This document shows positions 30,427-62,018 of a stretch of DNA of 64,000 bases, piece by piece. The translations under genes were made by a program, and so were the position numbers. The notes under the pieces are model-generated. The model was not told the origin of the DNA. It ran no database searches and saw only the letters and a list, made by a program, of their open reading frames with translations. The stretch is from Chloroflexota bacterium (GTDB lineage Bacteria > Chloroflexota > Dormibacteria > Dormibacterales > Dormibacteraceae), in NCBI GenBank assembly GCA_005880945.1, contig VBIU01000010.1:1-64000 (forward strand), given 5' to 3'. The stretch's first letter is position 1; each line of letters begins with the position of its first letter.

Positions 30427-30544
30427 TGAGTCACCCCCAAAAATGCCCAGCTGGGCCCCCAATCCGATCTCTGGATTCTAACGCCCCTTCCGGATCGTGT
30501 CGAAAACAAATTCCAAGGGCCGTCACTTGTTAGATTGGCCGGCT

Positions 30545-31789
30545 ATGTCCAACACTTTTCCCGAAGGCTTCCTCTTTGGCGCGGCGGTGGGCGCGCACCA
30601 GGTCGAAGGTGGCAACACCAACAGCGACTGGTGGTGGTGGGAGCATCGCGAAGGAACAGTCTGCCGGGAGCCGTCCGGCGACGCCTGCGACTTCTATAAC
30701 CGATACGAGGAAGATATAGCGCTGCTGGCCGGGCTCGGCATGAACGCTTTCCGTTTTGGCATTGAGTGGGCGCGTATCGAACCGGCCGAGGGCGAGTTCT
30801 CGCACGCACAGCTCGACCACTACCGGCGCATGCTGGACGCGTGCCACCGGCATTCGGTGGTGCCTGTCCTCACCTTCCACCACTTCACGCTGCCGAAGTG
30901 GCTGCACGACCTTGGGGGCTTCGCGTCGGACCAGTTTCCGGCGTTGTTCGAGCGCTATTGCGATCGCGCGGCGGCTGTGCTCGGGGACGCGATAGGGGTC
31001 GCCTGCACCATCAATGAGCCGCAGGGGCTGGCGCAGAGCGGCTACCTCCTCGGCATCAATCCGCCAGGCCACACCGATGATCACGTTGGTGCGCAAGCCG
31101 CCGTCGACCACCTGCTTGAGGCGCACCGTCTTGGCGCCGCGGCGATTCGCGCTCACACTCATGCGCCGGTCGGAGTCACTCTCGCCATCCCGGACATCCA
31201 GTACGAGGACGGAGCGCAGCCAGGGAACACATCTCTCGAGATCGAGTCTCGCGTCAACGATCAGTTCATGGAGCTGGCGCGAAAGGACGACTTCATCGGA
31301 GTCCAGACATACACGCGGTTTCGTATCGGTCCCGAGGGATCTCGCAGCCCCGGTCACGATTGGAGCGACTGGACTCGCGAGGCGGACGAGACGGATGGCT
31401 CAACCCAGATGGGCTACGAGTACTATCCGCAGGCGCTTGGCGGTGCGATCCGGCGCGCGTGGAGGAGCACGGGAGGAATCCCGATCCTGGTCACGGAGAA
31501 CGGCATCGCCACGTCTTTCGACGACAAGCGGATTGCCTTCATGGACGCCGCTCTCCGCGAGGTGCAGGCATGTATCGCGGAGGGCATCGACGTGCGGAGC
31601 TACCTGCACTGGTCTCTGCTCGACAACTTCGAGTGGGCGTTCGGTTATGCACCTACCTTTGGTCTGGTCGCTGTCGACCGGCGCACGTTCGAGAGGCATC
31701 CGAAACCGAGCGCCGGGTGGCTTGGTGCTGTCGCCCAGACGAAGCGCCTTCCGGAGCTCGAGCCTAGCGCTTCTTCTCCATCTGCGTGA
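30545..31789 (+). CDS. Glycoside hydrolase family 1 (beta-glucosidase-like)
   Basis: FPEGFLFGAAVGAHQVEGGNTNSDWWWWE; TINEP; ILVTENGIA; YLHWSLLDNFEWAFGY. Confidence 0.95.
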   Translation: MSNTFPEGFLFGAAVGAHQVEGGNTNSDWWWWEHREGTVCREPSGDACDFYNRYEEDIALLAGLGMNAFRFGIEWARIEPAEGEFSHAQLDHYRRMLDACHRHSVVPVLTFHHFTLPKWLHDLGGFASDQFPALFERYCDRAAAVLGDAIGVACTINEPQGLAQSGYLLGINPPGHTDDHVGAQAAVDHLLEAHRLGAAAIRAHTHAPVGVTLAIPDIQYEDGAQPGNTSLEIESRVNDQFMELARKDDFIGVQTYTRFRIGPEGSRSPGHDWSDWTREADETDGSTQMGYEYYPQALGGAIRRAWRSTGGIPILVTENGIATSFDDKRIAFMDAALREVQACIAEGIDVRSYLHWSLLDNFEWAFGYAPTFGLVAVDRRTFERHPKPSAGWLGAVAQTKRLPELEPSASSPSA

Positions 31790-33419
31790 TCGGCTGAAGC
31801 AGCTCCGGCTCGAGCTTCGGCCGCCGTTCGAAAGTTAGTAGGCCGTTTCGTTCCTGCTCGACATCGGTCAGCTGCGTGTAGCAGAAGCCCTCGACCGGGC
31901 CTGGCGCCATCAATGCCTCGACCATCTCGCGATACGTCATCAAAAGCGCCTCGCCCCCGGAGGCTTCCGACCAGCCAAAGCCGCCCGAGCCCGACAGAGC
32001 GACACCTCCGAACTCGCTGACGACGATCGGCTCGCCATGATGTGCGTAGCCAGGTAGGTAAGCGGGATGCGGTCGTGCGCCGTCCGCGAGCGCAGTCCCG
32101 AGATTGCGATAGCGACGCGCGAGATCCTCCGCCGACCCATAGTCATGAAGAGTGCAGAGGTCGCTCGTAGTGTGGTCCCAGCCGTCGTTCGACATCGCCG
32201 GCCTTGTCGGATCGAGCTCATGCGTTAGCGCATACAGCCGGTTGAGAAGCTCGACCGGCGGCTCGGGCCCGAGCCCGAAGCTCTCGTTCATGGGCACCCA
32301 CGCCACCACGGACGGGTGGTCGCGGTCGCGGACGACCGCCTGCTGCCACTCGTTGATGAGCCGGCGCTCGGCATCGGGTGAGTCCACGTGGAAGTTGGCC
32401 ATCTCGCCCCACACGAGGAAACCGAGCGTGTCGGCCCAGTACAGCCATCGTGGGTCCTCCACTTTCTGGTGTTTGCGCGCGCCATTGAAGCCCATAGCCT
32501 TGGCGACCTCGATGTCACGCCGCAGCTCAGAGTCGGTGGCCGCGGTCAGCAACCCGCCCGGGAAGTAGCCCTGGTCGAGGACTAGCCGCTGGATGTAGGG
32601 CTCGCCGTTGAGCCAGAACCGGCCATCCCTGGTCTCGACTTTTCGGAGTCCGAAGTAGCTCGTCACCTGGTCCGAAGCGCCGCCCTTCGCATCGAGCAGG
32701 CTTGCTTCGATCTGGTACAGATGGGGCGTATCCGGGCTCCATGGCATAGCGCGCTCGAGCGCGATCCGCCCCGCGCCAGTGCCCCGCCATCGGCCGACCA
32801 CTGCCCCGTCGAACGAAGCCACCACCTCAACCTCGCCGTCCGCCGCGGCCTCGAGCTCAATTGCCGCCGCGTCCAGGTCAGGCCGGACCCTGAGGCTCTG
32901 GATCGAGCGCTCCGGCAGTGGCTCCAGCCAGACCGTCTGCCAGATGCCGGTCGTCGCCGTGTAAAAGATGCCCTCCGATTCAGGCTTCCAGAACTGCTTG
33001 CCGCGCGGGATCGTCATGTCCTGGAGCGGATCCTCGGCTCGAACCACGACAGTGTTGCCGGCGCGGCCTGCGAAGCGGCTGATATCCGCCGAGAACGGCG
33101 TGTGGCCGCCTTCGTGACGGGCGACCTCCTCCCCGTTCACCCACACCGTGGCGCGGTAGTCGACGGCGCCGAAATGCAGCATCAGCCGCGCGGCATCGGG
33201 GGCGTCGAACCGGCGCCGGTACCAGACGACGTCGCCGGGCTCGGGCTCGGCAAGCCCCGAGAGGGACGACTGCGGGCAAAAAGGGACGAGGATGCGGCGG
33301 TCGAAGACCTCGGAGTCGCCGGCCCCGAACTCCCATTCGCCGTTGAGATTGACCCAGCTAGAGCGGCGGAAGCTCGGACGCGGATATTCGGGTCTCGGCA
33401 GTCCGCGCATTTCCCTCAT
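31764..33419 (-). CDS. Glycoside hydrolase family 2 (beta-galactosidase/glucuronidase-like)
   Basis: VNLNGEWEFG; YRATVWVNGEEVARHEGGHTPFSADIS; VVAWVPMNESFG; PIVVSEFGG; 3' end overlaps GH1 by 26 bp. Confidence 0.93.
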   Translation of the reverse strand: MREMRGLPRPEYPRPSFRRSSWVNLNGEWEFGAGDSEVFDRRILVPFCPQSSLSGLAEPEPGDVVWYRRRFDAPDAARLMLHFGAVDYRATVWVNGEEVARHEGGHTPFSADISRFAGRAGNTVVVRAEDPLQDMTIPRGKQFWKPESEGIFYTATTGIWQTVWLEPLPERSIQSLRVRPDLDAAAIELEAAADGEVEVVASFDGAVVGRWRGTGAGRIALERAMPWSPDTPHLYQIEASLLDAKGGASDQVTSYFGLRKVETRDGRFWLNGEPYIQRLVLDQGYFPGGLLTAATDSELRRDIEVAKAMGFNGARKHQKVEDPRWLYWADTLGFLVWGEMANFHVDSPDAERRLINEWQQAVVRDRDHPSVVAWVPMNESFGLGPEPPVELLNRLYALTHELDPTRPAMSNDGWDHTTSDLCTLHDYGSAEDLARRYRNLGTALADGARPHPAYLPGYAHHGEPIVVSEFGGVALSGSGGFGWSEASGGEALLMTYREMVEALMAPGPVEGFCYTQLTDVEQERNGLLTFERRPKLEPELLQPITQMEKKR

Positions 33420-33437
33420 TCTTATCGCGAGGATCCT

Positions 33438-36400
33438 GTGCGCCCGCCAATCGAGACAGCGTCCGGCCTTGCAGCGGTGCTTCGCGGCGTGGTCGCCGAC
33501 ATGCAGCACGCCTCCAAGGCCGACATCGTCTCCATCTTCCTGTACGAAGAGTCCAGCCGCACTTATTACGCGCCGTTCGCCACCGGCCAGCCGCAGGAGA
33601 GCCTCCTCGACTCGCTGACCGACATGCGCGAGCAGCTCGCTCGGTATTCGAGCGACATGAGCCAGGGCAAGGTCCCTGACGATTTCAGCGTCCATCACTA
33701 CGGCTCGACGGTCTGGCTGACGGTCACACGTCAGAAGCTGGTCGCGAGAGACGCCGCCACCGAGATCGACAGCACCTTCATCAGGCGCTACCAGGTCCAG
33801 GCGACCATCGGATTGCCCCTGCTGGCGGGCGACAGGCTCCTCGGCCTCGTCTATCTCAACTACCGCGGGCGAGACCAAGCGCCAGACGGCGCTCGCCTGG
33901 CCGAGCTCGAACGCCGGGCGGCCGGCGCCGCCAGCGCGATAGCGACGGTACTTGCGGCGGCAGAGCGCTCGGCCCTTGACGGCATCGGCAGGCTGGCAGC
34001 CCTCCTGACCGCGCCCCCCGGAGATGAGCACACCGAGCTGAAGGAGCTCAGGCGCCTACTCTCGATCGCGCTTGCCGAGCTCCTGCTGGCGAGCGAGCTG
34101 GACGCTGCAGCGATCTATCAGTTCGCGGCGCAGCGGACCAGCCTCGAGCTGGTGACCGCGCACGCGCCGGTGGCTGCGCCACCCCGCATCGACCGCCACG
34201 ACCCTGCAGCGAGCTGGCCAACGGTGCTGACCGAGACCATTGCTTCGGCAACTGCCGCAGCGGACCTGCACCCGGTCGCCACGTACGCCCTCGGCAGCGA
34301 TCAGGAACCGCACGGTTACCTTGTCGTGCTGAGTCGCGATCGGCTCGCGACGGTACGCCGCGCGCCGGCCACCGACCTGCTTCTCAAAGCCGGCGCCGAG
34401 CTCATCGGCAGCTCGCTGGCGAGCCAGCGCCTCATCGCGGACCTCGAAAAGAGCAACCGTCTGCTCGGCGCCCTCGGAGACATGACCGCCGCAATGCTCA
34501 AGCCCGGCGCGTCACGGCAGGAGGTGCTGGAGGCGGTGGCCGGGCACCTCACCGATGCTGCGGTGCCGGAGTTCGACTTCCACTTCGCGACGGTCTACCT
34601 GCTCGAGGAGCGCGCCGACGAGTCAGTGGTGGTCAGCAGGGCGGCCGGGGCCGCGACAACGGCGGCCATCGCGTCGGCGGAGACTTCGAAAGGACCTGGA
34701 ACGTCGCACCGTGTGCGGGTGCCGCGCTGGGCTCTGGACGAAGAGCGGCTGCTTGCGCCAGACGACGTGCTCGTCCACGTCGCGCGCACGTGGCAGGTCG
34801 CCATCGTCGGACCGCTGCCCGTGGGGGGCAAGATCGACCGGGCCGACGTGGTTGCCGGCGCGCTGCCTACCCCGGCGGCATGGTCGGAGGTGCCCGTCGT
34901 GCGGTCGGACGGAACGACGCTGGCCCACGTCGCCGCCTGCCTGATCGGCGGCGCCGACAGCCGCCAGGCGGGATCGAGCCAGCCGCCCTTCACCCTGGCG
35001 GGCGAGGTGTTCGAGAAGAGCGGGCACGCGGACCTGATCAGGATCTTCCTGCCCTTCGGCTCCGACCTGAACCGTCGAGCGACGGGCGTGCTCGAGGTCG
35101 GCTATCACCGCTCCTACGAGCGCCGGCCTGACTGGGGTCAGATCGAAGCCCTCCGCGCCGCGGCGGCGCAGGTAGCCGTCGCGGTCGAAACGGCTCGCCT
35201 CTACGAGGAGGCGCGACGTCACGGCGAAGAGCTGGAGCTGAGCGCCGACGTCAGCCGCGCGATCGCGTCGTCGATCGACCTCGATCAAACCCTGACGCTG
35301 GTGGCGCAGGGCCTGGCGCGCTTGGTCGACGCATCGCTCTGCCAGATCGCCCTCTACGAAGAGGATCGCGAGGGATGGTTCGGTGCGGCGGCTTCCGACC
35401 AGGAGGAACTGTGGCGGCGCCAGCACGGTGAGCGATCCGAGCCCTCGTTCCTCTTCGACGTCCTCGACCGCGGCGAGCCGCTGGTCATCGAGGACACTGG
35501 AACGAGCGATCGGGTCAGCCCTTCTTATGTGAAGACGTTCGGAGTGCGCTCACTGCTCGCTCTTCCTCTGGTGGCGGACGGCCAGACGATCGGCGCGGCT
35601 GTGCTCGCGGAGCGCGAACAGCTCCGCACGTTCACTCCTGAGGAGGTGGAGCGGGTGCAGGGACTTGCACTCGGCGCCGCGGTCGCCATCAAGAACGCGC
35701 GGCTCCATGCGCGCGCGGAGGAGGAACGCCACCTGCAGAAGGACTTCGTGCTGGTGGGTTTCGGCCAGTGGGGACAGAAGGCCTATCAGCATCTGCAGAC
35801 GTTGAAGCAGTTCTTCAACTTCCGCATCCACGTCGTCGAGCAGGACTCACCCGGTGCTCGCGAACGCCTGGCCGCGCGCGAGGAAGAGGTGAAGACGCAT
35901 GGCGACGCCTTTTACTGGGACGGGCCCTCACTCCCTGCGCACGACCAGCTGGAACGCGAGCTCGAGTCCAGCTCGTATGTGATCACCTACATCGCGACGC
36001 CGGCCGTGACCCATCTGCCCACCCTTGCCCTGTACTACGACCTCAGCGACGTGGTGCTGATCGAGAAGCCGCTGGGCGCGCCTCCCGAGGATTACCGGGA
36101 GTTTCTCGACAGCGCCCCCGGTGGAGTCGAGATCGTGGCCGCCGACCACTACTACTTCAAGCTCGAGGTACGCCTGCTCCAGCTCCTCCTCACCGAGGAG
36201 AGAACGTTGCGAGACTTCCTCGACAACGTCGAGGAGATTCGGATCGAGATACTCGAAGAGCAGCCACTGGTCGGCGCGGCCGCGGACATCGGAGTTGTCG
36301 CCGACCTGATCCCTCACGCGTTCGCGATCATCTCCCTGTTGACGCCGATCGACCGCATCCGCCTCGACGCCGAAGCGCCACTTTTGGTGGGCCGGCACGA

Positions 36401-36884
36401 AGGGCTCACCGGCCAGCGCGAGAGCTACGCGCGAATGAACTCGACCTTCCAGAACCGCGGCCGATCGGTGCGGCTCGTGATCGATGTGGGCAAGGGCGCC
36501 GAGAATGCGAAGTGGATCAAGTTGAGCGGTGAGCGCCGCGCGGGCGGGCGCAGCCCCAGCTACAAGTTCGACTTCGGAAAGGGCGAGGCGATCGACGGCA
36601 CGCAGGCCACTGTGCGGGCGGCGGTGCGAAGGATTCGCGAGCCGGGGGTGCCAGACAACGCGCACCTGAACATGCTTCGCCACGTGATCGAGAAGAGGCA
36701 CCCGGCGGTCGGCATCCTGTCGATCCGAGAAGCGATCAGGGCGAACCAGCGAGTGCGAGAGCTGGAGGCGATGGCGGTCGAGCTGCTGGCGCGAGGCGAG
36801 TGGACGAGCTATGCCGTGGGCACGCGCCCGGCCTTCGACGCAAAGCGACTGACAATGTCGAGCGGGATCAAAGCCGAAAGCTAA
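33438..36884 (+). CDS. Multi-GAF-domain protein fused to C-terminal Gfo/Idh/MocA (or G6PDH-like) oxidoreductase
   Basis: N-part has several GAF-like blocks (e.g. RSLLALPLVADGQTIGAAVLAEREQLRTFTPEEVERVQGLALGAAVAIKNARL); from about 35742 FVLVGFGQWGQKAYQHLQTLKQ...YIATPAVTHLPTLALYYDLSDVVLIEKPLGAPPEDY. Confidence 0.85.
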   Translation: MRPPIETASGLAAVLRGVVADMQHASKADIVSIFLYEESSRTYYAPFATGQPQESLLDSLTDMREQLARYSSDMSQGKVPDDFSVHHYGSTVWLTVTRQKLVARDAATEIDSTFIRRYQVQATIGLPLLAGDRLLGLVYLNYRGRDQAPDGARLAELERRAAGAASAIATVLAAAERSALDGIGRLAALLTAPPGDEHTELKELRRLLSIALAELLLASELDAAAIYQFAAQRTSLELVTAHAPVAAPPRIDRHDPAASWPTVLTETIASATAAADLHPVATYALGSDQEPHGYLVVLSRDRLATVRRAPATDLLLKAGAELIGSSLASQRLIADLEKSNRLLGALGDMTAAMLKPGASRQEVLEAVAGHLTDAAVPEFDFHFATVYLLEERADESVVVSRAAGAATTAAIASAETSKGPGTSHRVRVPRWALDEERLLAPDDVLVHVARTWQVAIVGPLPVGGKIDRADVVAGALPTPAAWSEVPVVRSDGTTLAHVAACLIGGADSRQAGSSQPPFTLAGEVFEKSGHADLIRIFLPFGSDLNRRATGVLEVGYHRSYERRPDWGQIEALRAAAAQVAVAVETARLYEEARRHGEELELSADVSRAIASSIDLDQTLTLVAQGLARLVDASLCQIALYEEDREGWFGAAASDQEELWRRQHGERSEPSFLFDVLDRGEPLVIEDTGTSDRVSPSYVKTFGVRSLLALPLVADGQTIGAAVLAEREQLRTFTPEEVERVQGLALGAAVAIKNARLHARAEEERHLQKDFVLVGFGQWGQKAYQHLQTLKQFFNFRIHVVEQDSPGARERLAAREEEVKTHGDAFYWDGPSLPAHDQLERELESSSYVITYIATPAVTHLPTLALYYDLSDVVLIEKPLGAPPEDYREFLDSAPGGVEIVAADHYYFKLEVRLLQLLLTEERTLRDFLDNVEEIRIEILEEQPLVGAAADIGVVADLIPHAFAIISLLTPIDRIRLDAEAPLLVGRHEGLTGQRESYARMNSTFQNRGRSVRLVIDVGKGAENAKWIKLSGERRAGGRSPSYKFDFGKGEAIDGTQATVRAAVRRIREPGVPDNAHLNMLRHVIEKRHPAVGILSIREAIRANQRVRELEAMAVELLARGEWTSYAVGTRPAFDAKRLTMSSGIKAES

Positions 36885-36894
36885 CCGCTATCGG

Positions 36895-37959
36895 TCAGCG
36901 ATGGTAAGACTCCTGGATTGCTCTTTCGTACACGGATTGATAGCCGTCCGCCATCTGGCCCGGGCCGAATCGTTCTGACGCTCGCTTGACGCACTTCTGC
37001 AGGTCGATCTCGCCGACATGGGCGTAGGCCTCGACGAGCCCGTCCAAGTCTTCGGCGAGGAATCCCGTGATCCCAGGCTCGACCAGCTCGCTGGCCGCTC
37101 CTCGAGCCATCGCAATGACTGGTGTGCCGCTGACCATCGACTCCACCATCGCGAGACCGAACGGCTCCTCCCACTGGATGGGAAAGATCATCGCCCTCGC
37201 GTGGCTGAGCAGTCGCGCCTTCTCTAGCCCGACGATGTTGTCGTGCCAGACAACCCGCTCGCCGAGATGCGGCTTGATCTCGCGCTCAAAGTAGGCATTC
37301 GCATCGGGATCGATCTTGCCCGCCAGCACGAGCTTCAACCCGAGCCGCCGCGCCACCTCGATGGCGAGGTGCTGCGCCTTGCTCGGGTTGATTCTCGCCA
37401 GCTGGAGAACGTAATCCTCCTTCTCTTCATGGCTGCAGACGGGGCGATACTCGGCCGGGTCGACGGCGTTGTAGACCACTCTTCGCCATCGGACGCTGGC
37501 CACCTGTGCCTGCTGCGAGCGGCTGATCGCGACCAGGTGAACGTCGCGGTCCACCGCAGCCAGGAAATCGCCCTCGGCTTCCGTCAGCGAGCCGTGCAGG
37601 GTGGCGACCACCGGCGTCGTCAGACCGCTTATCGCACCGAGAAGGATTCCGGTCAACCCTGAGTGGTCGTGGATGACGTCGAACGCCCTCCTTCGCACCA
37701 TCTGGTAGGCGCGGTACAGGAAAAGGCTCTCCCGCGGCTGCTGGTCGATCGTTCCCAGCTGGTCGGACCAGCTCTCCGGCGCCACTGCAGCGACCTCAAA
37801 CGGTCCTTTCGTTCCCTGCTGGCCGATGACGCACACCTGATGCCCACGAACGTGCAGCTCGCGGGCGAGGTTGTACGCCATCAGCTCGATCCCGCCGTAG
37901 CCAACGGGTGGAACCGGATACCAAGGGCTGACGATCATGGCAATCCTGCGGGGGACCAC
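36895..37959 (-). CDS. Glycosyltransferase family 4
   Basis: IAMIVSPWYPVPPVGYGGIELMAYNLARELHVRGHQV; EPFGLAMVESMVSGTPVIAMARGAASELVEPGITGFL. Confidence 0.92.
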   Translation of the reverse strand: MVPRRIAMIVSPWYPVPPVGYGGIELMAYNLARELHVRGHQVCVIGQQGTKGPFEVAAVAPESWSDQLGTIDQQPRESLFLYRAYQMVRRRAFDVIHDHSGLTGILLGAISGLTTPVVATLHGSLTEAEGDFLAAVDRDVHLVAISRSQQAQVASVRWRRVVYNAVDPAEYRPVCSHEEKEDYVLQLARINPSKAQHLAIEVARRLGLKLVLAGKIDPDANAYFEREIKPHLGERVVWHDNIVGLEKARLLSHARAMIFPIQWEEPFGLAMVESMVSGTPVIAMARGAASELVEPGITGFLAEDLDGLVEAYAHVGEIDLQKCVKRASERFGPGQMADGYQSVYERAIQESYHR

Positions 37960-38022
37960 GTTTCTAAAACTCCGGAGCCCTAATCACACCCTAGGAGGCA
38001 GCTACTCCGTACAGGTTGGCTA

Positions 38023-40263
38023 CTAAACCTTCATCCAGGGTGGTATCCCGCGCACAACCTCGAGGCCGGGTGGCGGCTCGACGTCCACCGAGCAAGTTCC
38101 GTCCTCGGCCCGATCAATTTGCAGGCGAATGCGATGCTGCCCGACCTGCAGATCCTCCAGGGTCAATCGCGGGCACCAGGGCGGAAGGGCGGGGTCCAGG
38201 TAGAGCCGGCCGGCCGGCATGTCCGGCTCGAGGCCGACGAGTATGCGCACCATCTGCAGCACGGCGCCGGCGGCCCAAGCCTGCGGCACGTTCGCCATTC
38301 GATAAGGCACCGGGACGGCGAACTCCTCCAGCGGGAGACCCGAGAACAGCTCTGGCATCTGGATGTCCTCGAAGCACATGACCGCGGCGAGGAGGCCGTC
38401 CATCAACCTCCAGGCATGCTCGGTCAACCCGTAGCGGCGCAGTCCGGCGGCGGCGATCACGGTGTCGTGCGGCCACACGGACCCCCGCTGGTACGAGTGG
38501 GGGTCATACGAGGGATGCAGCTCAGAGAGCGTCCGCAGCCCCCAGCCGCTGAAGAGGTCACGCTGCAGCAAACGTTCGCCGGCGACGCGGCCGCGGGCGC
38601 CATCGAGGATTCCCATCCAGAGGCAGTGGCCCGGGTTGGACACCACTGTGCGGACGGCACGTTTGTGGCCGTCGATCGCGAAGGCCACCTGTCCTGGATC
38701 GTCGAGCCAGAAGGTTTCATGAAAGCGGCGCCGGAGCTCAGCGGCTTCGGTTCTCAACCGGTCCGCGCGGGCGCCATCGCCCCACGCGTCGAACAGAGGA
38801 GCCATTTGCACTTTCGCGCCATACACATACGCCTGCATCTCGCACGTGCCGATCGGCAGCTCGGGGGAGACCCCGGTCTCGTCGAGCACGCCGTCGTGCG
38901 CATCCCGCCAGGCCTGGTTGCGATAGCCCTTGGGCGAGCGCGGACCATATTCCTGAAAGCCATCGCCGTCGCGGTCGCCGTGCTGGTCGATCCAGTCGAG
39001 GCAGCCTTCCGCAACCCGCTTGAATGGTGCGAGCACGCCTGCGTCGCCGAGCCAGCGATGGTGCTCTGCGAGCAGCAGAAGATAGAGTGGCGTCGCGTCG
39101 GCGGTGCCGTAATAAGGGCGATGAGGAACCAGTCCGAAATGGGCCCACTCGCCAACGCGGAGCTCATGTGGGATCTTGCCTGGCTCTGCATCGCGCACGG
39201 GATCGTCGACGTCCGACTGCCAGTGCGCGAGGTTCTCCAGAGTTCCGATCGCGACCGATGGCTGCGCGATCATCGCCTGCATCGACGCGATCAGCGAATC
39301 GCGGCCGAACAGGGCCATGAACCATGGCAGCCCAGCGGCCGGCATCCATTTCTCAAACGACGCGTCGTGCTCGTCTAATCGCAGCGCGGCGAGGTCTTCG
39401 ATTGCGCGCTCGTAAGCGAACTGAAGCCGGACGTCAGCCGGCACCAGTCGCGTGACCGATTTCTGCAAGCGCTGCGGCTCGTCCTCGCCTTCGTTCTCGA
39501 AATCGCACCGGGTGGCCAGCGCCGGCAGCTCACCATCGCTGGTCAGCAGGTCGTATTGCAAGCAGACACGCCAATCTTCGCCAGGGGTGAGCTCGACTGG
39601 GAACCGCAATGACCCGTTGGCGTAGCTGACGTCGGCCTTGTCGGTCAGCGTCCGCACAAGACAGCGGCGAACGAAATCCTCATGACGGTAATGGGCGTCG
39701 AGCCGATTCGGTCGAACCCAGGTTGTGTTCAGGTCCGCGCGGCGCTGCCATTGCTTGAAACGCACCTCGAACAGATCGGCGAAGTCGCTCTCGAGCGCGA
39801 CCTCGAGCAGCAGCGTAAGAGGCGTCCGCCCATAGGTGTGCAGGACGAGATCCTCGTGCAGCCGGTGAAAGCTGAGCAGCCGGTCGATCGTCACGGCCAC
39901 CCGCGCTCCACGCATGTCTCCCGATGGGCCGGCGAGGTCGTCGGCGATCAGATGCCATCGCGCATGTCGGTACGAGAGGCGAACCGATGCGACCGATTGA
40001 GGGCGGCGGCCGTTGAGACGCAGCTCGTGCCGCGAAACAAAGCGCGTGTCGGCCGCGTACAGCCCGCACTCGCCGGCCTCTAGCGGAACGCGACCTTCCT
40101 GGTCTGCGACCAGGAAGGTCGCGCCATGGTTGATCTTTACCGTCGGGTTCGGGTGGACGGAGGAGATGAGCGTGCGCCGAGGCCCTTGCCTGAGCTCGCC
40201 GTCCTCGCTTCTTCGGGACGCCTTGGCAGGTTTCGAGGGCCTGGCGCGACCATGTGCCTTCAT
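38023..40263 (-). CDS. Amylo-alpha-1,6-glucosidase / glycogen debranching enzyme
   Basis: ATFLVADQEGRVPLEAGECGLYAADTRFVSRHELRLNG; AGLPWFMALFGRDSLIASMQAM; SVWPHDTVIAAAGLRRYG. Confidence 0.92.
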   Translation of the reverse strand: MKAHGRARPSKPAKASRRSEDGELRQGPRRTLISSVHPNPTVKINHGATFLVADQEGRVPLEAGECGLYAADTRFVSRHELRLNGRRPQSVASVRLSYRHARWHLIADDLAGPSGDMRGARVAVTIDRLLSFHRLHEDLVLHTYGRTPLTLLLEVALESDFADLFEVRFKQWQRRADLNTTWVRPNRLDAHYRHEDFVRRCLVRTLTDKADVSYANGSLRFPVELTPGEDWRVCLQYDLLTSDGELPALATRCDFENEGEDEPQRLQKSVTRLVPADVRLQFAYERAIEDLAALRLDEHDASFEKWMPAAGLPWFMALFGRDSLIASMQAMIAQPSVAIGTLENLAHWQSDVDDPVRDAEPGKIPHELRVGEWAHFGLVPHRPYYGTADATPLYLLLLAEHHRWLGDAGVLAPFKRVAEGCLDWIDQHGDRDGDGFQEYGPRSPKGYRNQAWRDAHDGVLDETGVSPELPIGTCEMQAYVYGAKVQMAPLFDAWGDGARADRLRTEAAELRRRFHETFWLDDPGQVAFAIDGHKRAVRTVVSNPGHCLWMGILDGARGRVAGERLLQRDLFSGWGLRTLSELHPSYDPHSYQRGSVWPHDTVIAAAGLRRYGLTEHAWRLMDGLLAAVMCFEDIQMPELFSGLPLEEFAVPVPYRMANVPQAWAAGAVLQMVRILVGLEPDMPAGRLYLDPALPPWCPRLTLEDLQVGQHRIRLQIDRAEDGTCSVDVEPPPGLEVVRGIPPWMKV
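40089..40123. other. Perfect 16-bp inverted repeat with 3-nt loop inside debranching-enzyme CDS
   Basis: CGCGACCTTCCTGGTC-TGC-GACCAGGAAGGTCGCG. Confidence 0.9.
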
Positions 40264-40739: not shown

Positions 40740-41213
40740 CTACCTCACCCGGTCCAAGACGACGATCGGGATCTCGCGCTCGGTCAGCTTCTGCTGGCTT
40801 TCCAGGTACGGCACTGCCTTCCCCAGCTCGTCGCGCGCACCGGGTGGTGCTGTCGACGCGCGAACCTCGAACTTCTCGGGACCCAGCTCCACCGTTGCCG
40901 CCGGGTGCGCGACGAGGTTGTGATACCAGGCGGGAGCTGCTGGAGCTCCGTTGTTCGACGCGATGACCACCAGGCGGTCGCCCTGTCGGCCATAACCCAC
41001 CACTGTCGTCCGCGGCTGTCCCGATCGCCTGCCCTTGGTCGTGAGCAGCAGGACCGAGCGCCCCGCCATCGGGCCGCTGAGCTGGCCGTGGTTCGCCCGG
41101 AACTCGGAGATTAGCGCCTTGTTGAAGGCGCCCATATCCCGCGGGATCTCGACTTTGCCTTTTGCATCTCGATTCGTCTCTTGGCTCAATGCACCCCCCT
41201 TTTGAACCAGCAT
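40740..41213 (-). CDS. Nitroreductase/deazaflavin (F420)-dependent oxidoreductase family protein
   Basis: VLLLTTKGRRSGQPRTTVVGYGRQGDRLVVIASNNGAPAAPAWYHNLVAHPAATVELG. Confidence 0.9.
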   Translation of the reverse strand: MLVQKGGALSQETNRDAKGKVEIPRDMGAFNKALISEFRANHGQLSGPMAGRSVLLLTTKGRRSGQPRTTVVGYGRQGDRLVVIASNNGAPAAPAWYHNLVAHPAATVELGPEKFEVRASTAPPGARDELGKAVPYLESQQKLTEREIPIVVLDRVR

Positions 41214-61145: not shown

Positions 61146-62018
61146 ATGGCGAGCCCACTCCGCGTGGCCATCATCGGGTCCGGGAACATCGGGTCGGACC
61201 TCATGTACAAGGTGCGGCGCAACACGCACCTGCAGCTGGTCGCGGTCGTCGGTGCCGACCCCACATCCGAGGGCCTCGAGAAAGCGCGAGGTTTCGGCTG
61301 CTGGACCACGAGCTCCGGCCTCGAGCACTACCTTCGCGAAGGCCCGGCCGCGGACCTTGCATTTGAGGCAACCTCCGCGACGGCGCACGCAGTCCATGCG
61401 CCGCTCCTGGCTCGGGCTGGAATCAGCTGCATCGACCTGACCCCTTCGGGGCTGGGACCGACGGTGGTGCCGGACGTCAACCTGCACGAGCATCTCGACG
61501 CGCCCGACGTGAACCTGGTCACCTGTGGCGCACAGGCGACCGTCCCCGTCATCAAGGCATTGGCGGACGTCCGGTCCGTGGAATATGCGGAGATCGTCTC
61601 GACGGTGGCATCTCGATCTGCTGGACCCGGAACGCGGCAGAACATCGACGAGTTCACCGTCGCGACGGCCCGCAGCCTCGAGCGCCTGGGCGGTGCGCGG
61701 AGAGGCAAGGCGATCATGCTCCTGAACCCCGCGGACCCGCCGATCATGATGCGCAACACCGTCTACGCAGAGGCGCCGGGCATCGGCCCTGAGGATGCGA
61801 TCGCGGCGGTCGAGGCCGTGGTAGCGCGAATCGCCAGCTACGTGCCGGGCTATCGACTGTCGACCGGGACCGTGGCCACGGCGGAGGGGATGATCACCGT
61901 CTTCATCGAGGTGGAAGGCGCAGGCGACCATCTGCCGCGTTATGCCGGAAACCTCGACATCATGACCGCGGCCGCCGTGCGCGTGGCGGAAGTCCACGCG
62001 GCGAAGGTCGCGCGGTGA
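61146..62018 (+). CDS. mhpF: Acetaldehyde dehydrogenase (acylating)
   Basis: VAIIGSGNIGSDLMYKVRRNTHLQLVAVVGADPTSEGLEKARGFG; LVTCGAQATVPVIKAL. Confidence 0.95.
   Translation: MASPLRVAIIGSGNIGSDLMYKVRRNTHLQLVAVVGADPTSEGLEKARGFGCWTTSSGLEHYLREGPAADLAFEATSATAHAVHAPLLARAGISCIDLTPSGLGPTVVPDVNLHEHLDAPDVNLVTCGAQATVPVIKALADVRSVEYAEIVSTVASRSAGPGTRQNIDEFTVATARSLERLGGARRGKAIMLLNPADPPIMMRNTVYAEAPGIGPEDAIAAVEAVVARIASYVPGYRLSTGTVATAEGMITVFIEVEGAGDHLPRYAGNLDIMTAAAVRVAEVHAAKVAR

Follow-up and report, generated by a model that had tools for sequence, protein, structure and literature searches.

Locus and gene neighbourhood

The window analysed here, 64,000 nucleotides in length, is part of a 77,754-base contig in a 3.34-Mb MAG. 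The host group, the candidate phylum Dormibacterota, consists of soil bacteria known mainly from metagenomes, and the closest relatives among the genomes searched are MAGs whose deposited names read Candidatus Dormiibacterota/Dormibacteraeota or unclassified Chloroflexi. The gene under study encodes a protein in which an array of GAF-type modules is joined directly to an oxidoreductase-type domain (the fusion). According to the ORF listing of the window, it is stop-free throughout and yields a product of 1,148 aa, in agreement with the initial annotation, which had reported one uninterrupted frame of about 1,150 aa. The frame counted from the first ATG spans 32721-36884 (1,387 aa). The GTG at 33438 was taken as the start because the N-terminus of the relatives, (M/V)RPP(V/I)E, begins at the same point and an AGGA is located 4 nt upstream.

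33438-36884, plus strand: full gene with GTG start, coding for four GAF-type modules and a predicted C-terminal dehydrogenase (ORF, AGGA, conserved xRPPVE start)
30497-31789, plus strand: GH1 beta-glucosidase-type gene; 14 of 25 relatives have it directly upstream of the fusion in the same direction

In the window, the fusion belongs to a sugar-catabolism cluster. The first part of the cluster comprises genes for a GH15/trehalase-like protein, a MalK-like ATPase, two permeases (assigned by position and synteny, not by Pfam), a solute-binding protein, GH1, GH2, and the fusion itself; the second part comprises a GT4 gene, a glycogen-debranching-type enzyme, an FGGY kinase, an SDR, a Zn-dehydrogenase, and a GH42-like gene. 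A small protein similar to F420H2-dependent quinone reductases (PF04075, E 2e-30) is also encoded within the cluster, at 40740-41213. No Rfam family matched anywhere in the window.

The GH1 gene precedes the fusion across gaps of 17-235 nt at the 14 Dormibacterota loci where the two are adjacent, and a second enzyme of the GDE_N_bis/MGH1 type follows directly downstream and co-directionally at 17 of the 25 loci. A GH1-fusion-GDE operon situated beside a sugar ABC transporter is probable in most Dormibacterota relatives. The window itself is arranged differently, as an opposite-strand GH2 gene separates GH1 from the fusion, and the co-directional debranching-type gene is absent from 36895-40263, the fusion being followed there only by GT4 and GDE genes on the opposite strand. 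On the minus strand, GH2 starts with the ATG at 33419 and diverges from the fusion, 18 bases separating the two start codons, and hence any promoter of the fusion would lie largely inside the GH2 frame, at a place where most relatives have GH1. In deeper lineages the sugar operon is missing, and within the deep Chloroflexota lineages no neighbour is consistently conserved; the link to glucan metabolism is therefore lineage-specific. Thus, the sugar-gene neighbourhood pointed out previously is conserved in relatives, but only in most Dormibacterota and not in the deeper lineages.

Domain composition of the fusion protein

The modules and motifs of the protein are located as follows.

33462-33887, plus strand: GAF1, residues 9-150 (Pfam GAF on a fragment; AF2 secondary structure)
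34011-34364, plus strand: GAF2-type module, residues 192-309 (AF2 model only; Pfam negative)
34497-35132, plus strand: GAF3-type module with a large insertion, residues 354-565 (GAF_2 below cut-off; AF2)
35268-35636, plus strand: GAF4, residues 611-733, the best conserved GAF (Pfam)
35340-35342, plus strand: codon of Cys635 in GAF4, the only cysteine invariant across 19/19 homologues
35637-35732, plus strand: coupling helix, residues 734-765, entering the Rossmann domain (AF2; junction length identical in 19/19)
35733-36842, plus strand: predicted C-terminal dehydrogenase domain, residues 766-1135, divergent member of the Gfo/Idh/MocA-G6PD superfamily (Pfam, profile comparison, AlphaFold/Foldseek)
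35757-35774, plus strand: GFGQWG dinucleotide-binding motif, residues 774-779, three glycines invariant
36063-36077, plus strand: EKPLG, residues 876-880, invariant, with Lys877 as the predicted catalytic lysine
36144-36161, plus strand: DHYYFK, residues 903-908, with D, H, Y, and K invariant; aligned with DHYLGK of G6PD (roles from PMC11448927)
36303-36317, plus strand: DLIPH, residues 956-960, with D956 and H960 invariant; aligned with DxxxH of Gfo/Idh/MocA and the general-base histidine of G6PD

The initial annotation had mentioned several GAF-like modules. We count four; of these, GAF2 and GAF3 are recognisable essentially from the predicted structure alone. GAF4 scores above the Pfam cut-off (residues 613-751; GAF/GAF_2 E ~1e-16), and so does GAF1 when a sub-fragment is searched (residues 11-145; E 2e-7). 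GAF3 gives a weak GAF_2 match below the cut-off (E 8e-4) and is otherwise recognised through the AF2 model, while GAF2 has no Pfam match and displays a GAF-like order of elements in the model only. The full-length AlphaFold model (mean pLDDT 79, pTM 0.43), in which the modules are usable singly but their relative placement is not, predicts four consecutive modules, each with its helices and strands in the order typical of GAF domains, linked by long helices at residues 151-191, 310-353, 566-610, and 734-763. In a fold comparison of this model, the tandem GAFs of PDE5A, PDE2A, and CyaB1 rank first, and the lower matches include single GAFs (e.g., PtsP) and Gfo/Idh/MocA enzymes. The canonical cyclic-nucleotide motif NK-x(5-14)-F-x3-DE is absent from every GAF in all 19 sequences. 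Cys635, which in several homologues is the sole cysteine of the protein, is situated in an early strand of GAF4, presumably distinct from the usual bilin-attachment site (the helix cysteine of phytochromes and cyanobacteriochromes); it is a candidate redox switch. The insertion in GAF3 (34497-35132) has conserved residues of its own, R437, D443, G474, and G492. In agreement with the original description, Pfam finds no kinase, GGDEF, or HTH domain in the fusion protein.

The C-terminal domain, which extends over residues 766-1148, was originally described as Gfo/Idh/MocA-like, with a Rossmann motif and EKPLG, both of which are found where they had been placed. The GxGxxG motif, the EKP lysine, and the DxxxH histidine occur in the Gfo/Idh/MocA order and align with members of the superfamily from the same genome. 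The Pfam family GFO_IDH_MocA (PF01408) matches residues 770-893 with E-values of 5e-4 to 2e-3 and scores of 19-21 bits, just below the curated cut-off of 24 bits; in a genome-wide search the score is 23.7 bits, and 24 with neighbours. All homologues match this family (21/21; best E 1.4e-5). Comparison by hhalign with six Gfo/Idh/MocA sequences of the same genome yields probabilities of 93-97%, with EKPLG and the DxxxH histidine aligned. A second weak PF01408 match is located elsewhere in the window, at 61158-61427, in a protein that reads more like the N-terminus of an acylating acetaldehyde dehydrogenase.

Similarity to G6PD is of a different kind. Comparison with a profile of 23 related G6PDs gives 63%, the alignment spanning EKPLG, ADHYYFK, and DLIPH. 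As a control, an ordinary Gfo/Idh/MocA profile compared with the same G6PDs scores 71%, albeit over only 47 columns around EKP, and therefore the profile score alone does not make the C-terminal domain G6PD-like. When the domain is modelled in isolation (pLDDT 80, pTM 0.70; the DHY loop has pLDDT <50), a Foldseek search of the PDB places G6PDHs at ranks 1-18 (E 9e-19 to 6e-15), whereas with the full-length model the best listed matches to the C-terminal domain are Gfo/Idh/MocA enzymes, with no G6PD among the top 50. A sequence search of the PDB produced no match below E 0.04. Pfam G6PD_C is found in 0/21 homologues and G6PD_N in 3/21 (best E 0.034), none above the cut-off. The PROSITE signature of G6PD is DHYLGK[EQK]; all homologues deviate from it, having DHY(Y/W)FK, with the D, H, Y, and K themselves retained. 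In human G6PD, Asp200 is catalytic, His201, Tyr202, and Lys205 bind phosphate, His263 is the general base, and Lys171 belongs to EKPxG (PMC11448927).

We considered and rejected the assignment of the domain as a G6PD, since the signature, the GxxGDL fingerprint, and the Pfam tests failed and the profile similarity is not special in view of the control. We place it in the Gfo/Idh/MocA-G6PD superfamily as a very divergent member, with G6PD-like residues at the substrate site, and not as a G6PD. The C-terminus is thus upheld as an oxidoreductase, and the profiles favour the Gfo/Idh/MocA side of the earlier description; a plain Gfo/Idh/MocA call, however, is precluded by the divergence, the Pfam score just below the cut-off, and the substrate-site residues. 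A phosphorylated sugar would be the expected substrate, because EKPxG is combined with the Asp-His-Tyr-x-x-Lys motif and G6PD is the best match of the isolated model.

One could go further and suppose that the substrate is specifically glucose 6-phosphate, so that the protein would be a compact GAF-regulated G6PD controlling entry into the pentose phosphate pathway beside the ordinary enzymes. The occurrence of EKPxG and DHYxxK at the G6PD positions, the G6PDHs as best fold matches of the isolated model, and the glycogen-debranching neighbours, which feed glucose phosphates, are in line with this. Nonetheless, we consider it very unlikely: DHYLGK[EQK] is not retained, GFGQWG stands in place of the GxxGDL fingerprint, the domain is ~100 aa shorter than G6PD, the best Pfam G6PD E-value is 0.03, and two ordinary, true G6PDs are already encoded elsewhere in the genome.

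Distribution and conservation of the fusion

Of 41 other genomes in the family, 32 contain the same fusion; in two more the N-terminal part alone was found, in one case reaching the contig end. In a sample of 400 genomes of the phylum it occurs in 26, all within three families. It is also present in three further Chloroflexota lineages and in small nearby classes, and a scan of a genome collection retrieved 40 loci, two Thermomicrobiales MAGs among them. At each locus examined the GAF modules are in frame, apart from fragments and from frames that a single event has interrupted (G006, G003). The junction AI(K/R/Q)NAR...GFG(Q/E)WG has identical length in 19/19 homologues. Among the relatives searched, this GAF array was not found combined with a different output; stand-alone relatives of the C-terminal domain were not found either, in a scan that relies on exact matches to short peptides and would overlook remote relatives; and viral contigs and plasmids yielded no relatives. 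A contig deposited as 'Acidobacteria bacterium AA35' contains a copy of the Dormibacterota type, ~79% identical over the whole protein, and this bin is probably misnamed or contaminated.

These data bear on the trivial explanation that two genes were misjoined in assembly, near 35740, or that the frame is open by chance in GC-rich DNA. The MAG is fragmented and the window contains long spurious frames on both strands, and hence the concern is legitimate. Its probability is nevertheless practically negligible, and we reject it, as dozens of genomes obtained independently, in several studies and from several classes, contain the fusion, with the same junction in independent assemblies of many species, and changes at third codon positions predominate. 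Neither are catalytic residues lost: GxGxxG, EKPLG, DHYxxK, and DxxPH are invariant in 19/19 aligned homologues, and D903, H904, Y905, K908, H960, and K877 are kept in every one of them. Recurrence and invariance together bear out the central observation of the initial annotation, a fusion of a GAF array with an oxidoreductase, and indicate that its catalytic residues are intact.

Both halves of the protein are under strong purifying selection, with dN/dS of 0.10-0.19 for the GAF part and 0.05-0.09 for the C-terminal domain. The trees of the two halves have 10 of 16 splits in common, including that between Dormibacterota and other Chloroflexota, and their pairwise distances correlate at 0.95; the association of the two halves predates the divergence of these lineages or the exchange of the gene between them. 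The mean identity of the window protein to the Chloroflexota homologues is highest in the C-terminal domain (67%) and the coupling helix (66%), followed by GAF4 (54%) and GAF1-3 (29-43%). Hence, the constraint is strongest in the enzyme domain, followed by the adjoining helix and GAF4, as would be expected if GAF4 is coupled to catalysis.

The same gradient is relevant to the suggestion that the array is a dimerisation or tethering scaffold attached to a constitutive, ungated dehydrogenase. The divergence of GAF2 and GAF3 beyond Pfam recognition and the absence of the NKFDE motif would be natural for a scaffold. However, the conservation of GAF4 and the coupling helix is not, the fixed length of the junction points to mechanical coupling, and ~750 aa is more than a scaffold needs; altogether, this reading seems improbable.

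Conversely, the C-terminal domain might itself be a sensor, of NAD(P)H and/or a sugar, with the GAF array relaying the state to a partner protein and catalysis slow or absent. Gal80 is a regulator with the Gfo/Idh/MocA fold, GAF arrays usually report to something, and the fusion protein encodes no partner output. Yet the full set of expected catalytic residues, and not the cofactor site alone, is unchanged across 19 distant homologues, whereas regulators of this fold usually lose such residues; the domain is the most constrained part of the protein; and no partner gene conserved across deep lineages was found. We therefore regard a sensory C-terminal domain as unlikely.

Proposed function and comparison with known systems

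The architecture suggests an enzyme switched directly by a small-molecule or redox signal. Of the readings considered, we favour a sensor-gated NAD(P)-dependent dehydrogenase of a sugar or sugar phosphate, to which we give about an even chance. The four tandem GAFs would probably constitute the dimerising, signal-receiving part, as in cyclic-nucleotide phosphodiesterases, joined by helices of which the last leads directly into the first Rossmann strand in the model. Binding of a ligand or a redox change in the array, most likely in GAF4 with Cys635, would shift the coupling helix, so that the cleft separating the Rossmann subdomain from the substrate-binding one would open or close. The reaction would be the oxidation of a hexose derivative, probably a phosphorylated one, with Lys877 holding the nicotinamide ribose and a substrate hydroxyl, His960 acting as the general base together with Asp903 and/or Asp956, and His904, Tyr905, and Lys908 gripping the phosphate. 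The full scheme, that is, control from signal to NAD(P)H within one protein, where a phosphodiesterase/phytochrome-type array gates a Gfo/Idh/MocA-G6PD intermediate, possibly via a redox-active cysteine of GAF4, is offered only tentatively.

The output domain shares with Gfo/Idh/MocA oxidoreductases, e.g., GnnA (7bvj) and scyllo-inositol dehydrogenase (5yab), the Rossmann GxGxxG, the EKP lysine, DxxxH, and the second alpha/beta domain. In contrast to these enzymes, it is preceded by ~750 aa of GAF modules, no unfused close relative was found, and it contains the DHYxxK element, which the compared members from this genome lack. With G6PD it shares the fold of the isolated model, EKPxG, Asp-His-Tyr-x-x-Lys at the phosphate site, and the aligned general-base histidine; it differs in lacking the DHYLGK signature, the GxxGDL fingerprint, and a Pfam G6PD match above the cut-off, in its shorter length, and in the fused sensor array. 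PDE2A, PDE5A, and CyaB1 likewise have tandem GAFs on long helices directly before an enzyme domain, but the output of the fusion would be a metabolic dehydrogenase, not a cyclic-nucleotide enzyme, and NKFDE is absent.

GAF arrays drive kinases, cyclases, phosphodiesterases, sigma-54 activators, and enzyme I. In the last case, EI-Ntr (PtsP) combines a GAF with PEP-phosphotransferase enzyme I, so that the GAF directly regulates an enzyme using a central metabolite; it differs from the fusion in its single GAF, phosphotransfer chemistry, and unrelated output fold. Nothing published on a GAF + Gfo/Idh/MocA architecture, or, judging by titles and abstracts, on a GAF + G6PD one, turned up in the open-access papers searched; a search of that scope gives weak evidence of novelty. 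If the output is indeed a sugar dehydrogenase, sensing would act directly on NAD(P)H production in the fusion, with no signalling cascade in between. Its C-terminal domain offers a link between Gfo/Idh/MocA enzymes and G6PD, and its size of 1,148 aa allows direct expression and testing.
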